A stretch of 56,067 nucleotides of DNA from Helicobacteraceae bacterium (GTDB lineage Bacteria > Campylobacterota > Campylobacteria > Campylobacterales > Sulfurimonadaceae), in the NCBI GenBank assembly GCA_026988515.1, contig JALSLA010000040.1:1-56067 (forward strand), given 5' to 3'. The position numbers and the translations under genes were made by a program. Numbering within the stretch: the first letter of the stretch is position 1; every line of letters starts with the position of its first letter. The notes beneath the pieces were generated by a model that saw only the letters and a program-made list of their open reading frames with translations, was not told where the DNA came from and did no database searches. Shown here in pieces: positions 21,102 through 37,807 of this stretch.

Positions 21102-21107
21102 TATGAT
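21102..21107 (+). promoter_or_regulatory. Possible -10 box of the TlpA-DUF3570-ApbE operon
   Basis: TATGAT preceded by GG, 34 bases before the start at 21142, in the divergent region shared with thrC. No clear -35. Confidence 0.3.
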
Positions 21108-21141: not shown

Positions 21142-21603
21142 ATGCGTTTTGTTCTTCCGGTACTGCTTCTCTTCACGGTCACTCTCTTTGCCTACAGTAC
21201 CAACGACACCATCAGCACAAAGATGCAGCAGACGTTGCAACTCGACCCCAAAAAAATCACCATAGTCGATTTTTTTGCGTCATGGTGCGGTTCATGTAAA
21301 AAAGAGATTCCTCATATTTCCAAAGTCAATGCACAGCTTGACCCAAACAAATATGAAATTATCGGTATTGACGTTGATAAAAAACTTTCGGAAGGCATTG
21401 CCTTTCAAGAAGCGCTTAAAGCTAAGGGGCACCTGAACTTTCGTGTTATTAACGACCCTGAAAACAACATTGTCAAAGCATTTAACCCCATCGGTATGCC
21501 CGCACTCTATTATATTAGAGATCATAAAGTACTCAAAGTGCTCTACGGAGCCATCGATGATATCGACGATGTTATTCGTAACGATTTAAAAGCATTGGAG
21601 TAG
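21142..21603 (+). CDS. TlpA-like periplasmic thioredoxin
   Basis: 153 residues from ATG 21142 (ribosome site AAAGGA), with a signal peptide (about 1-17). A thioredoxin fold follows, with active site WCGSC (C49 and C52) and a cis-Pro region (GMPALYYI). Expected to reduce or exchange disulphides in the periplasm. It opens a four-gene unit with DUF4266, DUF3570 and ApbE (gaps of three bases, a 10-base overlap, and seven bases), so its client is probably the Cys-bearing DUF4266 lipoprotein or the barrel. The longer upstream ORF start has no ribosome site. Confidence 0.85.
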   Translation: MRFVLPVLLLFTVTLFAYSTNDTISTKMQQTLQLDPKKITIVDFFASWCGSCKKEIPHISKVNAQLDPNKYEIIGIDVDKKLSEGIAFQEALKAKGHLNFRVINDPENNIVKAFNPIGMPALYYIRDHKVLKVLYGAIDDIDDVIRNDLKALE

Positions 21604-21606
21604 CCC

Positions 21607-21825
21607 GTGAATGCCATAGTCCTTGTTCTAACGGCACTGCTTGTTGGCGGTTGCAGTGGTATTGTCGATGTCAAACCCTGGGAGAAAGAGCGTCTCTCCC
21701 GTGAAAGTATGCAAAACTCGGCCGGTAACGGTCTTGTGAGCAAGTTCGATGCACATGTCTATTTCTCTAAAGAAGCAAGCAAAGGCGGCGGTGGAGTTGC
21801 CGGAGGGGGATGCGGATGCAACTAG
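21607..21825 (+). CDS. DUF4266 small lipoprotein
   Basis: 72 residues from GTG (GGAG seven bases upstream). Lipoprotein signal with lipobox VGGC (C16), then SGIVDVKPWEKERLSR, the hallmark of DUF4266, and a Gly-rich tail ending GGGCGCN. The C-terminal Cys pair in a Gly-rich tail could be the target of the neighbouring thioredoxin or a ligand site. Family function is unknown. The tight link to DUF3570 and ApbE points to a shared envelope redox role. Confidence 0.82.
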   Translation: MNAIVLVLTALLVGGCSGIVDVKPWEKERLSRESMQNSAGNGLVSKFDAHVYFSKEASKGGGGVAGGGCGCN

Positions 21826-23009
21826 CTACCAAACTCTCCTTGTTTACATGCGGTTTGCTTGCCGTCGGAACGCTTCAGGCAGAAGATTACGTCAGTGTAC
21901 AGTATGTTCATTACGATGAAGAGAGCGGACGAACAACCGTCATGTCACCGGCTCTTGAAGTCAGCAAAGATTTCGGCACCGACTACACACTCAAAGCCTC
22001 ATTGGTTCTTGACAGCATCAGCGGTGCCAGTCCGTCATGGTATGACAGCTCCAGCGGTGCTTCGGCATTTTCGCGCGGCACTACCTCGAGTGATCGTGTT
22101 GTTTACGGTAATATCGATTATGATGACACCCGAACTGCCGGATCTGTCGCATTAACAACACGTTTTGCATCGCGTGACGAGCTCACCGTCGGCTATAGCC
22201 GCTCTTACGAAAGCGACTATGAGGCCAATGAACTCTCTGCCGAATATCTCTACAATCTTGACAGCAGCCGTAACCGTACCCTCTCGTTTGGACTCTCGTA
22301 CCAATTTAATCGCGTATTGGTTGAAGAGTACGCGAGCAATACCAACCGTTTTAGAGACGATGATGATGACGATGACGATGATTACGACTCCAGTAGCGGG
22401 GCAAGCCAATCATTTGATATTAACGTGCTCACTGCCGAGATCGGTGTTACCCAGATAATCAACCCGACTTCACTGGCAAAAATTTCGGTTTTCTACATTA
22501 ACGAAGACGGTTATTTGAGTAACCCCTACATGAATGTTGTACGCAACTACAACCTCAATAACAGCGCTACAGCAGAGGTAACGGCAGAGAGCAAGCCCGA
22601 CACCCGAACCGCCTATGGCATGACACTTCAGTACATTAGTGCGCTTAGCGACACACTCAGTACGAATACATCCTACCGTTTGTACCGTGATGACTGGGGT
22701 ATTTTGTCTCATACCGTCAATACCGAACTCTATTATGAATACGGCGACAATTGGCTGTTAGGTCTGGGATTGCGCTACTATAAGCAAAACGAAGCCGATT
22801 TTTACAGTGAAAGCAAAACCTTTTTTACCAATGAAACCTATGCCAGCAGTGACCGGCGCATGAGTGATTTTCATGCCCTTTCCTACAAAGCAAATGCACG
22901 CTACCGTGTCAATGACGACTGGAGTGTCAACGGCGGTATTACCTATTATGACCAAAGCAAACATTTTGATGCTCTGTACTATACTCTGGGGCTAAAATAC
23001 AACTTCTAG
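21816..23009 (+). CDS. DUF3570 outer-membrane beta-barrel protein with three candidate flavinylation motifs
   Basis: 397 residues from ATG 21816, which suits the GGAGG at 21802-21806 better than the ATG at 21810. Signal peptide cut near LQA-ED. The rest alternates as beta strands with a C-terminal aromatic (YNF), so it should be an outer-membrane barrel. Three copies of D-x-x-S-G-A-S occur: DSISGAS at 22011-22031, DSSSGAS at 22044-22064 and DSSSGAS at 22386-22406. Each fits the Dxx(S/T)GA(S/T) pattern at which ApbE attaches FMN to NqrB/NqrC/RnfG-type proteins. An ApbE gene follows directly. A run of nine Asp codons (about 22357-22382) precedes the third motif. Confidence 0.85.
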   Translation: MQLATKLSLFTCGLLAVGTLQAEDYVSVQYVHYDEESGRTTVMSPALEVSKDFGTDYTLKASLVLDSISGASPSWYDSSSGASAFSRGTTSSDRVVYGNIDYDDTRTAGSVALTTRFASRDELTVGYSRSYESDYEANELSAEYLYNLDSSRNRTLSFGLSYQFNRVLVEEYASNTNRFRDDDDDDDDDYDSSSGASQSFDINVLTAEIGVTQIINPTSLAKISVFYINEDGYLSNPYMNVVRNYNLNNSATAEVTAESKPDTRTAYGMTLQYISALSDTLSTNTSYRLYRDDWGILSHTVNTELYYEYGDNWLLGLGLRYYKQNEADFYSESKTFFTNETYASSDRRMSDFHALSYKANARYRVNDDWSVNGGITYYDQSKHFDALYYTLGLKYNF

Positions 23010-23016
23010 GGTTTCA

Positions 23017-23841
23017 ATGCAGCAGTTCATCTACCGTTTTGAGAGTATGAGCACACCATGTGAGCTTCTGCTCTTTAGCAGATCCAAACATCAATCCGAT
23101 ACAGTGGCACAAGCCATTGTCAAAGAGAGTAAACGCCTGGAACACAAATACAACTACTACAGTTCCCATTCGTTTCTGCAACGTATTAACAGTCGCGACG
23201 CACAGCATCTCGATGCCGAAACAAAAACACTTCTTCAGCGTGCCAAACAGTACTACCGAGCAACAAACGGAATCTTTGACATTACCGTGGCAACCGTTAA
23301 AGAACTCTACACAACCCTGGCAAGCCGGAGCGAACTTGAGAGACAAAAAGCGCAACTGCTCCCTTTTGTCGGATGCGAACATTTCAGTATAAAAAAAGAG
23401 AACATCGTCTTTGACAACCCCTACACTAAAATTGATCTTGGCGGTTTTGTCAAAGAGTATGCCGTCGATCGTGCGGTTACTCTGGTTAAAAAACATAAAA
23501 TGACGGCGGCACTCATTAATTTTGGCGGCGATATTTACGCCTACGGTACAAAACCTGACGGCACAAAATTTAAAGTCGGTATTAAAGATCCTGAAAATCG
23601 TGCCGTTCACGCAATGTTTCTTGAACTTAACAATGAAGCACTGACCACTTCCGCATCGTATGAACGCCATTATATTATTGAAGAGAAAACCTACTCGCAT
23701 ATTATTTCAAAAAACGAGATTTCTCAAACACCCCGATCTGTCAGCGTTATTTCACCAAATTGTGTTGAAAGCGGTGTCTATTCAACCGCACTCATGATCA
23801 ATCCTGATCTCCGGACAAAAAATCGTGTCGTTATGCTCTAA
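23017..23841 (+). CDS. apbE: FAD:protein FMN transferase (ApbE)
   Basis: 274 residues. ApbE signatures in order: MSTPCELLLF (the usual MGT region), FDITVATVKELY, KIDLGGFVKEYAVDRA, LINFGGDIYAYG, TTSASYERHY and a closing SGVYSTALM. The enzyme moves FMN from FAD to a Thr or Ser of target proteins. Unlike most ApbE it has no visible signal peptide or lipobox, so either it acts in the cytoplasm before export or an export signal is unconventional. Seven bases after the DUF3570 barrel gene, whose SGAS motifs are the obvious candidate targets. Confidence 0.88.
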   Translation: MQQFIYRFESMSTPCELLLFSRSKHQSDTVAQAIVKESKRLEHKYNYYSSHSFLQRINSRDAQHLDAETKTLLQRAKQYYRATNGIFDITVATVKELYTTLASRSELERQKAQLLPFVGCEHFSIKKENIVFDNPYTKIDLGGFVKEYAVDRAVTLVKKHKMTAALINFGGDIYAYGTKPDGTKFKVGIKDPENRAVHAMFLELNNEALTTSASYERHYIIEEKTYSHIISKNEISQTPRSVSVISPNCVESGVYSTALMINPDLRTKNRVVML

Positions 23842-24166: not shown

Positions 24167-24988
24167 TTAAAGCAGCGGCTTTAAAATATAGTAACTTGCG
24201 CCAAACATTGCCAGAGTCAATGCCAAGAATTTCAGACTCACACTCATAAAGCTCACAACCTGACACCCAGTGCATGACACGACACGGCTTGCTTCATATT
24301 TTGCATAGGCAAAGTAACCAATATTAAGCAATATTAGAGCTACTGTGGCATATACATTAAACGTATAAAACATTTGCAATGTACTTTGTTCAAAGGAAAA
24401 CAGCGGTGTAAACAGCGTTAGAAACTCCAAGACTAAGAGTTTGGTCATCATACTTTTAAAATATTCTCGTCCCGAAACGGGAGCATTTGAATCAAAACTG
24501 CCGACCACCCCCGAATACGCCAGCTCTTTTTCCAGATTTTTACGCTCTTTGGCATTCATTTTTGTTGCAAAACTACCGCCGAATATATAATCGAACTTTC
24601 GCTGTATACGCCGTGACAATGCTCCTTCAGCCTGTAAGGCATGTTGGTTGCCATCACGATCCTGATAGATTAAAGAGATACTCTCATAACGATGAATGGT
24701 ACGTTGAACATCCGGAAGATACAGTGTGGTTTCCAGCGATGGCACCCACCCCTTTTTTTTAATAATTCTCGGATTGATCAGCTCTAAAAAATTTCCTTCA
24801 TCATCTTTAACCACCACAACGGCAAGGGGGTAGGCAATCTGTATGGCAGCCAAGCCGTCGGCATTGTTAGCTTTGGCTGTATCTTTCATATCTTCTATGA
24901 GGTCATGAAGCGCATCGTCAAATACCCTGACATCGGAAGAGACCAAATCAATACGACTGTCAGGGTATACTACTATATCTCGAACCAT
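24167..24988 (-). CDS. Peptide-deformylase-like pseudoenzyme fused to a membrane domain
   Basis: 273 residues. The first 145 follow the peptide deformylase fold: motif 1 ADGLAAIQ (43-50, usual GxGLAAxQ), motif 2 ETTLY (86-90, usual EGCLS), motif 3 QRKFDY (129-134, usual QHExDH). The metal-binding Cys and both His and the catalytic Glu are therefore all replaced (T, R, Y, K), so it cannot be an ordinary metal deformylase. Residues 180-270 add about three membrane helices and a CTGC motif (239-242). It may have been kept as a binding domain, for example for nascent N-termini at the membrane; that is speculation. Coupled to a DUF309 gene. Confidence 0.72.
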   Translation of the reverse strand: MVRDIVVYPDSRIDLVSSDVRVFDDALHDLIEDMKDTAKANNADGLAAIQIAYPLAVVVVKDDEGNFLELINPRIIKKKGWVPSLETTLYLPDVQRTIHRYESISLIYQDRDGNQHALQAEGALSRRIQRKFDYIFGGSFATKMNAKERKNLEKELAYSGVVGSFDSNAPVSGREYFKSMMTKLLVLEFLTLFTPLFSFEQSTLQMFYTFNVYATVALILLNIGYFAYAKYEASRVVSCTGCQVVSFMSVSLKFLALTLAMFGASYYILKPLL

Positions 24989-35692: not shown

Positions 35693-35712
35693 AAGGCTTT
35701 GTTAAAAGCCTT
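35693..35712 (-). terminator. Hairpin at the 3' end of the papain-hydrolase gene
   Basis: AAGGCTTT (35693-35700) pairs with AAAGCCTT (35705-35712) around a four-base loop, straddling the stop codon at 35702. On the - strand it is followed by a moderately T-rich stretch. Confidence 0.5.
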
Positions 35713-37807
35713 GAAGGTTTTCAACCCTCACCGCCAACTGTTTTGTTGCCGTGATTTTTTGGAGTGTCTGCTCGATTACTTCAATATCGTTGTCGAACGA
35801 TCCGTGCGAAAGATCAATAGAATCACCGTTACGCGATGTATTGACTTTACTGTGAGATTTGTCAAAAACAATGCGATGCACCCCTACAGCAAATGCATTC
35901 CATTTTTTAATATCGTTGTAGGTTGCATCATTGAAAATATCATGTGCTTTTGCATAGTCGTATTCCCATGCTGCCGCCATACCCAGTAACGGTGTTTTAT
36001 GAATATTCTCCAATGCGCGACTCACCAGATAGAGTAACGACTTTCTATATATTGCGACGCTGTCCGCACGTTCACGTTCGTCATCCATCATATAGATCGT
36101 TATGGTCTCTGTAGCAAGAATTGCTTTTTTACAGGCTTTCATATAGTGTCGGTTGGCAAATGCTACCGTACAGGCGGGTGCATACAACGTCAGCGATGCT
36201 ACGGCAAGCTGCCGTTTTGTCAGTTCATCCAACCAGTGTCCCAATAAAATGGCACCGGCAGAGTGCCCGACCAAATGAATATCGCAATGAAATTCACTTT
36301 TAAGTCGATGCAACGCTTCAGAAAGAATCACCATAGCACCCGGTTTGGTATTGCCGTGTTGCGGATATCCCGGTACCGCTCTATCACTGGCAAATGCAGC
36401 ATTTTCTTTCATTTCCGACCACACTCCTTTCACGGCAATACGACGTGAAAAACTCTCAATAGAGCGGTCAATAGCATCATGAAGTTTATCCATAAGCCCT
36501 TTGGCACGGCTGCTTGAAGGCTCCATGCCCGCACTGGAGAAGATCTCGCTGATGGTGTCTTTAATCTGATTGGCAATGGATTCAATAAATCCTGTTTTCC
36601 ATGTAATAAAAAGCGGATAGATTCCGTTCGCTTTAAAGTACGGTGCCAAAATACGAATACGGTTAATTGAGTCCGCTTCACTATTAAGTCCACCGTGTGC
36701 ATAAATGGCAATTTTTCGATGCTGCTTACTCTCCTGCATCCATGTTTTGATAGCGTCATAACAGACGTTACGTGCCGAGTTTTCGGGATCGGGCTCAGAA
36801 ATAATACGCAGTTTCGGTCGTCCGTCATTACCGACAACAAGCGTGTGTTGGTATGCTTTCTCTTCACTCCAAGGCATGGCTTTGCTACTCTTATAGGCAT
36901 AGTTCAAGGTACGTCGCATCATGCTGCTGCCACGTTCTGTATAGTCTGCTGCTACCGTTTGCAGCGAATGGTTTGAGAATGTATGCGGCGATGCAGCAAT
37001 ACGCACCGGAGCGCCCATCACGGCAACCCATGCATCAGTGCCGTTTTCTACCCACTCTTGGTACGACATAATTGCGAATCCGCAAAACCCCCAGGAGCTT
37101 CCCCATGAATTTTGAACAATAAAACCCTCGGCATTGTAACCGACAATGGCAAAAGCATGTCCTCCTACTGTAGCACTACCGGGCTCAATAACACGCAACG
37201 TATCACTCGTGTCAAGCCACCATCCCTCGTGAATTGTTGCCGAACAGTAAATAGCTCCTACCTCTTTAATAGCTGACTGCATGTCTACTATTGACTCTTT
37301 ATTGATACGATAATAAGCGCCCAAAGGGTTCTGAACCGCCTCTTGCGACCACGATGATTCGGGGGCACGGGTATCACCGGGAATATAAGGCCAGGTACGC
37401 TCTTTACAGACACCGTGTCGGTGCCACCCTTTCATGGCACCGCGACAACTCGACCCTTCATAGTCTTCACCCTCAAACTCATCGTAAATACGCGCCAAAT
37501 TGTAAAGCATTCGCGCACTGACTCGAAAAGAGTTTCGAGGATGCAGCTCGTTTTTTACATGTAACTGACGCTGCCACAGCAGATAATTAATGACAGCCGC
37601 CAGACCAAAGCCCGTACATGCACCTTCTTTACCTTGATCTAAAATCATTCCGTCGTCTCGATAACAAGGGAATAATGTGTTAACTTCATCATGCAACGGC
37701 CACTGCGGCGGAAGCGACTGCAATGGAGGACGGTACTCCCTATCACGCAGATCAAGCCGATCGGGTCGTGCATCTAAAAGTCTGTTGTTATAGGATTTTT
37801 TTGGCAT
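35702..37807 (-). CDS. Papain-like (C1) peptidase fused to an alpha/beta hydrolase
   Basis: 701 residues, no signal peptide. N-terminal half: C1 cysteine peptidase with LDARPDRLDLRDREY, catalytic Cys64 in DQGKEGACTGFG, His in GGHAFAIVGYN (about 215-225) and Asn in QNSWGSSWG (about 232-240). C-terminal half (about 360-650): an alpha/beta-hydrolase-like domain with oxyanion-type AIYAHGGLNSEADS and nucleophile elbow GHSAG (about 517-521). All residues for both activities seem present. Such fusions are uncommon and could be a toxin, a maturation enzyme or a storage-granule enzyme. No immunity-like or secretion neighbour seen. Single gene, with a TTTACATGTAAC copy. Confidence 0.8.
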   Translation of the reverse strand: MPKKSYNNRLLDARPDRLDLRDREYRPPLQSLPPQWPLHDEVNTLFPCYRDDGMILDQGKEGACTGFGLAAVINYLLWQRQLHVKNELHPRNSFRVSARMLYNLARIYDEFEGEDYEGSSCRGAMKGWHRHGVCKERTWPYIPGDTRAPESSWSQEAVQNPLGAYYRINKESIVDMQSAIKEVGAIYCSATIHEGWWLDTSDTLRVIEPGSATVGGHAFAIVGYNAEGFIVQNSWGSSWGFCGFAIMSYQEWVENGTDAWVAVMGAPVRIAASPHTFSNHSLQTVAADYTERGSSMMRRTLNYAYKSSKAMPWSEEKAYQHTLVVGNDGRPKLRIISEPDPENSARNVCYDAIKTWMQESKQHRKIAIYAHGGLNSEADSINRIRILAPYFKANGIYPLFITWKTGFIESIANQIKDTISEIFSSAGMEPSSSRAKGLMDKLHDAIDRSIESFSRRIAVKGVWSEMKENAAFASDRAVPGYPQHGNTKPGAMVILSEALHRLKSEFHCDIHLVGHSAGAILLGHWLDELTKRQLAVASLTLYAPACTVAFANRHYMKACKKAILATETITIYMMDDERERADSVAIYRKSLLYLVSRALENIHKTPLLGMAAAWEYDYAKAHDIFNDATYNDIKKWNAFAVGVHRIVFDKSHSKVNTSRNGDSIDLSHGSFDNDIEVIEQTLQKITATKQLAVRVENLQGF

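Follow-up and report, generated by a model that had tools for sequence, protein, structure and literature searches.

How a protein of the outer membrane could come to carry covalently bound flavin mononucleotide (FMN), and to what use, is the question raised by a four-gene cluster of a Helicobacteraceae bacterium (Sulfurimonadaceae, Campylobacterota), located on contig JALSLA010000040.1 of assembly GCA_026988515.1. The whole stretch analyzed, called the window here, comprises 56,067 nucleotides (nt); in its cluster, all four genes, encoding a thioredoxin-like protein, the lipoprotein DUF4266, the DUF3570 protein, and ApbE (FAD:protein FMN transferase; FAD, flavin adenine dinucleotide), are found together. 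This unit was proposed by an initial annotation of the sequence, and the open reading frames are present and agree with the Pfam matches. Our best explanation combines a published flavinylation system with attachment of FMN in the cytosol, flavins at the cell surface, DUF4266 as the partner of DUF3570, and a thiol relay directed outward. As a whole, we consider it reasonably likely.

Flavinylation of DUF3570 by ApbE is already published, and the present observation is a correct rediscovery. The DUF3570 protein of Chlorobium luteolum was shown to be flavinylated by its cognate ApbE at [S/T]GA[S/T] motifs, the modification being lost only on mutating both motif serines (Méheust et al. 2021, eLife, PMC8238504), which bears out, for this homologue, the initial suggestion that ApbE modifies the DUF3570 motifs with FMN. 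As the initial annotation had suspected of surveys of ApbE-linked loci, the same paper describes the gene set, calling its function uncertain, and already notes the CXC tail of DUF4266. Its clusters comprise the same four families as the window and [S/T]GA[S/T]-bearing DUF3570; 227 of them contain dsbD and 316 have no neighboring dsbD, the latter subset matching the window. The differences are the two conserved motifs of the published proteins versus a third in the window, and the truncation of signal peptides in the published constructs. Our literature search for DUF3570, PF12094, and DUF4266 found only this paper; a term search of its text found no mention of a barrel or of a cytosolic ApbE. 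DUF3570 goes unmentioned in a later structural survey from this field, one sentence of which alludes to outer-membrane sites. What is new are the third-site variant and two predictions, flavins on the surface side and flavinylation before export.

Judging from structural models, DUF3570 is almost certainly an outer-membrane barrel. The PF12094 match (E 5.7e-68) spans amino acids (aa) 23-383, that is, the whole domain, the N-terminus is a hydrophobic segment of the Sec type, and DUF3570 is the sole Pfam family detected at E <= 0.001, FMN_bind (PF04205) being absent from the protein. AlphaFold, given the window protein and 48 relatives, yielded 16 antiparallel strands (predicted local distance difference test, pLDDT, 79.9; predicted template modeling score, pTM, 0.78). 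A Chlorobia homologue again gave 16 strands (pLDDT 86.8, pTM 0.83), with motifs 1 and 2 in the loop between strands b3 and b4; the two models have most of their alignment in common. The 50 best PDB structures retrieved by Foldseek are outer-membrane barrels without exception, with FadL in first place (E 1.6e-10); searching the PDB by sequence with DUF3570 yielded no useful match. The outer-membrane location assumed by the initial annotation is therefore supported by both models and by Foldseek.

One end of the predicted barrel contains both termini and seven short turns, and the opposite end contains the loops b3/b4 with motifs 1 and 2 and b7/b8 with motif 3. Both termini of bacterial outer-membrane barrels are usually periplasmic; by this general rule the motif end would face the outside, and the flavins are likely extracellular. 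Of the 40 barrel residues with the highest conservation, 38 lie at the motif end in the window model (p 8e-7; 74 of 100,000 strand-flip permutations) and 37 of 40 in the Chlorobia model. This bias is shown by the most conserved residues only, the mean correlation of conservation with height being weak (r 0.15, with about 10% of strand flips as high). Residues Y35, A73, S74, E134, D136, G234, P263, Y292, D294, R322, and Q326 are invariant in 49 DUF3570 sequences, and the most conserved ones at the motif end include E134, D136, R266, Y289, Y292, D294, H301, R322, and Q326. In the models, this clustering suggests a pocket for flavin or substrate at that end.

DUF3570 very probably carries covalent FMN at one or more of its sites. 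Three D-x-x-S-G-A-S motifs had been read in the protein by the initial annotation, and their coordinates match exactly (Table 1). Their chance origin was ruled out by shuffling: when the mature protein was shuffled 20,000 times, at least one motif appeared in 112 shuffles and three motifs in none. Motifs 1 and 2 align with those of homologues, and motif 2 is common among 50 aligned DUF3570s. The conservation of SGA(S/T) that the initial annotation proposed to examine holds in part: A73-S74 of motif 1 is invariant in this alignment, but the Gly is replaced by Ala or Ser in 13 of the 50 proteins. In one tested model protein, a Gly-to-Ala change in the acceptor motif loses about half of the flavinylation (PMC12052999).

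DUF3570 proteins without SGAS were considered as a non-flavinylated group, and this was rejected: the Ala-Ser pair is kept in relaxed motifs (TAAS, SAAS, SSAS, TSAS, VGAS, AGAS), mostly beside ApbE. For instance, two DUF3570s, L021:8734-9861 (DAITAAS/DTVVGAS) and L022:2783-3907 (DAISAAS/DTVAGAS), have no [ST]GA[ST] yet adjoin a signal-less ApbE, the first of them in a cluster that also contains dsbD; their motifs are a possible relaxed form of the flavinylation motif. The variants SSAS and TSAS occur in DUF3570s of loci L095, L096, and L098.

The distribution of the family was surveyed in 298 Campylobacterota genomes and in 296 genomes from the phylum to which a Bacteroidota locus belongs. DUF3570 was over the cut-off in 5 genomes of the former set and in 86 of the latter. 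The Fenna-Matthews-Olson (FMO) protein was found in 26 of 30 tested genomes of the 296-genome set, and we thus identify these 26 as green sulfur bacteria or their close kin. Within that set, DUF4266 is present in 83 of the 86 genomes with DUF3570 versus none of the 210 without it, and ApbE in 83 of 86 versus 109 of 210. The idea that DUF3570 always occurs with apbE thus holds for 83 genomes and fails for three. In two genomes (G481 and G576), an SGAS-bearing DUF3570 was found, yet no ApbE; these are possibly incomplete assemblies. Several copies of DUF3570 are frequent in genomes of the Chlorobia type (for example, L060, L073, and L075), alongside one or two ApbE genes; the highest number of matches was nine, split hits being among the matches.

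In 13 loci from different phyla, the DUF4266 gene runs exactly 16 nt into the DUF3570 gene, and every sampled DUF4266 ends with Gly-Cys-Gly-Cys followed by Asn, Arg, or Gly. In the window, this tail is GGGCGCN, as initially annotated, with the CGC codons at 21811-21819. Because the co-occurrence, the fixed overlap, and the shared cysteine tail all point to an obligate pair, DUF4266 is probably an obligate and stoichiometric partner of DUF3570, as far as genome comparison can tell. In many homologous clusters, a DsbD of approximately 620 aa is encoded 3' of ApbE; no dsbD was found adjoining the window cluster, and a 599-aa DsbD frame is located elsewhere in the same genome (G000:C73).

The compartment of flavinylation is suggested by the state of ApbE itself. 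Its gene starts exactly seven bases after the DUF3570 stop, as the initial annotation had counted. The protein begins MQQFIYRFESMSTPC and has no hydrophobic N-terminus, signal peptide, or lipobox. An annotation error concealing a signal peptide was ruled out, since the stop-to-stop frame leaves only seven residues between the preceding in-frame stop and the Met. The cluster ApbEs of other Campylobacterota, Vibrio, and Chlorobia likewise lack a hydrophobic N-terminus (the signal state was judged by hydrophobicity rather than by SignalP). Among 30 DUF3570 genomes checked, 21 have a single, signal-less ApbE and four (G295, G332, G410, and G533) have two, both signal-less; thus, only signal-less ApbE was found in 25 sampled genomes. 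In three such genomes (G352, G406, and G363), the cluster lies on single contigs of 2.2-2.3 Mb. No FMN_bind domain exceeded the threshold in any of 27 genomes tested. Sharing of ApbE with an FMN_bind substrate was rejected on this ground, and the FMN_bind-like protein on contig C72 of the window genome has its own exported ApbE. The window ApbE is probably dedicated to DUF3570. In the ApbE tree, three changes of signal state are needed, two of them forced by well-supported branches, and a tree with all signal-less ApbEs in one clade is disfavored (approximately unbiased test, p-AU 0.0175, long branches being present). A signal-less cluster ApbE and the absence of an FMN_bind substrate from the genomes tested point to the cytosol as the site of flavinylation; the simplest reading of the sequences, to which we incline, is that the DUF3570 precursor receives its FMN before it is exported by Sec and assembled into a barrel. 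Whichever the compartment, loops ending outside the cell are modifiable only before the barrel is assembled.

These observations suggest the following scheme. The DUF3570 precursor would be flavinylated by the signal-less ApbE in the cytosol, on Ser74, probably on motif 2, and possibly on motif 3, exported unfolded by Sec, and assembled by the β-barrel assembly machinery (BAM), which would leave the FMN-bearing loops where the barrel opens to the outside, above a conserved pocket of Tyr, Arg, Asp, His, and Gln residues. The periplasmic thioredoxin, with its CGSC motif, would be kept reduced by DsbD, whose gene lies outside the cluster, and could pass electrons to the glycine-rich, Cys-Gly-Cys-bearing tail of DUF4266, which may carry them into the barrel to the FMNs; the tethered FMNs at the mouth would reduce an external acceptor. 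The experimental support, from the homologue, is for FMN on motifs 1 and 2, and the genomic support obtained here is for the partnership; the electron direction, the acceptor, the path through the barrel, the membrane side, and cytosolic flavinylation we infer. A role of flavinylated DUF3570 as an electron conduit or surface reductase, proposed from sequence, is plausible. The complete version, a cytosol-flavinylated, Sec-exported barrel with two to three surface flavins that serves as a haem-free surface reductase fed by the relay from thioredoxin through the DUF4266 Cys-Gly-Cys to FMN, is tentative, and net outward flow of electrons is only slightly favored.

The initial annotation allowed FMN at up to three sites. 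Three motifs are indeed present in the sequence, but only sites 1 and 2 match published ones, and we give motif 3 an even chance of carrying FMN. That motif 3 is unmodified, FMN being bound to motifs 1 and 2 only and the Asp-rich third loop having another role, is a serious alternative with somewhat less than an even chance: the published sites number two only, and most homologues lack motif 3 or have a degenerate form of it, such as DTASSAS in L018. It is opposed by the full motif at the same position in five of the eight Campylobacterota DUF3570s that bear the motifs or are related (motif 3 is full in the window, L013, L016, L019, and L020) and by the fact that the seven-residue motif is enough for ApbE, though with a lower yield when inserted in a loop (PMC12052999). 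In the aligned sample, full motif 3 was found only in Campylobacterota, so the third site appears to be an addition of this phylum. The Asp run before motif 3 is a possible metal or cation site; Asp-rich runs, perhaps metal-binding, also occur in loop b7/b8 of several Chlorobia-type DUF3570s (L059, L061, and L062). As for the direction of electrons, DUF3570 could instead be a flavin-gated channel or an oxidant, whose flavins are reduced by thiols of the periplasm or by a donor outside the cell such as sulfide or polysulfide, with inward flow or thiol oxidation. The chemistry between thioredoxin, the CGC tail, and flavin is reversible and many carriers are FMO-positive green sulfur bacteria, but DsbD, an established donor of reducing equivalents to the periplasm, is frequently linked to DUF3570 clusters, and we regard this alternative as improbable. 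A role with sulfide only is unlikely, as Flavobacteriia-type genomes and Vibrio also have the system.

Several points weigh against our explanation. The motif loops of the window model have low pLDDT (below 50 at residues 74-102 and 187-197), thus the flavin positions are not resolved, and the membrane side predicted for these loops follows the general barrel rule. The chemical link of DUF4266 or of the thioredoxin to DUF3570 is one that we infer. The catalytic triad of ApbE is Ser241-His257-Asp285 in Vibrio cholerae numbering (PMC12052999); the window enzyme keeps the Ser (TTSASY) and the His (YSHII), and the column of Asp285 appears in the alignment as Gly in this enzyme and in sampled Chlorobia ones. 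The C. luteolum ApbE, whose sequence was not part of this alignment, is active (PMC8238504). Finally, clusters of the Flavobacteriia type encode ApbE with an N-terminal hydrophobic signal, hence flavinylation in the cytosol does not apply to all clusters, and a second, exported ApbE (C72) is present in the window genome. These two facts, together with the description of most ApbEs as exported (PMC12052999), speak for attachment of FMN in the periplasm, either by the signal-less ApbE via an unrecognized route or by another exported ApbE, such as that of C72, acting on unfolded DUF3570 during its transit. We consider this unlikely, given the 25 sampled genomes with signal-less ApbE only, none of which has an FMN_bind substrate that would explain keeping ApbE otherwise. 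The C72 locus (L017:7161-10172) encodes the exported ApbE, a divergent FMN_bind-like protein (TITGAT; E 0.003, below the cut-off), and a cytochrome b561-like protein.

Table 1. Features of the DUF3570 cluster in the window
Feature	Position	Strand	Basis or location
Thioredoxin-like (TlpA/ResA-type) protein, periplasmic, with signal peptide	21142-21603	+	AhpC-TSA 2.7e-12, Thioredoxin 2e-10 (Pfam)
DUF4266 lipoprotein	21607-21825	+	PF14086 E 1.7e-19; GTG start; lipobox LVGGC (Cys16)
Overlap of the DUF4266 and DUF3570 genes, 16 nt	21810-21825	+	Sequence
DUF3570 with Sec signal, predicted to form a 16-strand outer-membrane barrel and to carry FMN	21810-23009	+	PF12094, AlphaFold, Foldseek
Motif 1, DSISGAS, aa 68-74, predicted FMN on Ser74	22011-22031	+	End of strand b3/loop b3-b4
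Motif 2, DSSSGAS, aa 79-85, predicted FMN on Ser85	22044-22064	+	Loop b3-b4
Nine consecutive Asp codons directly 5' of motif 3, loop b7-b8	22356-22382	+	Sequence; loop from model
Motif 3, DSSSGAS, aa 193-199, possible third FMN on Ser199	22386-22406	+	Loop b7-b8
Signal-less ApbE (FAD:protein FMN transferase), predicted to mature DUF3570 in the cytosol	23017-23841	+	PF02424 E 2.1e-55

Three known systems resemble the one described here. The cytosolic ApbE of Klebsiella pneumoniae (PMC12052999) also has no signal peptide and a dedicated substrate, but the latter is a soluble cytoplasmic fumarate reductase that stays in the cytosol, whereas the window substrate bears a Sec signal and is predicted to form a barrel in the outer membrane. 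The FMN_bind systems NqrC, RnfG, and NosR share the D-x-x-[S/T]-G-A-[S/T] acceptor and the ApbE chemistry; they differ from DUF3570, which has no FMN_bind domain, in the fold, the inner-membrane or periplasmic location, and the exported ApbE. The multi-flavinylated surface proteins of mostly Gram-positive bacteria (PMC8238504) likewise have several flavins per protein and a proposed role in surface electron transfer, with FMN_bind arrays on the cell wall rather than acceptor loops of an outer-membrane barrel.

Within the cluster, the thioredoxin-like gene has its CGSC motif at 21286-21297 and a further in-frame ATG upstream at 21103; its ResA-type assignment is a weak match. A second DUF3570 gene of the window genome (G000:C35:28593-29750, that is, L016:9594-10751) contains the motifs DSLSGAS, DASSGAT, and DTSSGAS and is paired with DUF4266 (L016:9379-9609). 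Neither ApbE nor a thioredoxin is encoded near this pair; NosL-like genes are near, and a 655-aa lipoprotein with CxxCH motifs is encoded upstream. A cytochrome partner as a general feature was rejected, this lipoprotein having no relative in the other 297 Campylobacterota genomes. Among other window genes, 24167-24988 (minus strand) encodes a peptide-deformylase-like protein whose C-terminal half is hydrophobic and apparently spans the membrane, and which by eye seems to lack the EGCLS cysteine and HExxH motifs found in active deformylases; 35702-37807 (minus strand) encodes a protein of 701 aa that contains a cysteine protease domain of the papain family (Pfam Peptidase_C1, 3.6e-9) and adjoins a PEP (phosphoenolpyruvate) synthase-like gene.

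If FMN is indeed attached to this outer-membrane protein in the cytosol, the problem of FAD supply outside the cytosol would be solved, and Sec and BAM would have to handle a precursor with a bulky cofactor. A barrel with a conserved site and flavin acceptors at its extracellular mouth would, if confirmed, provide haem-free electron transfer across the outer membrane, a route whose carriers would include green sulfur bacteria and part of the Campylobacterota.

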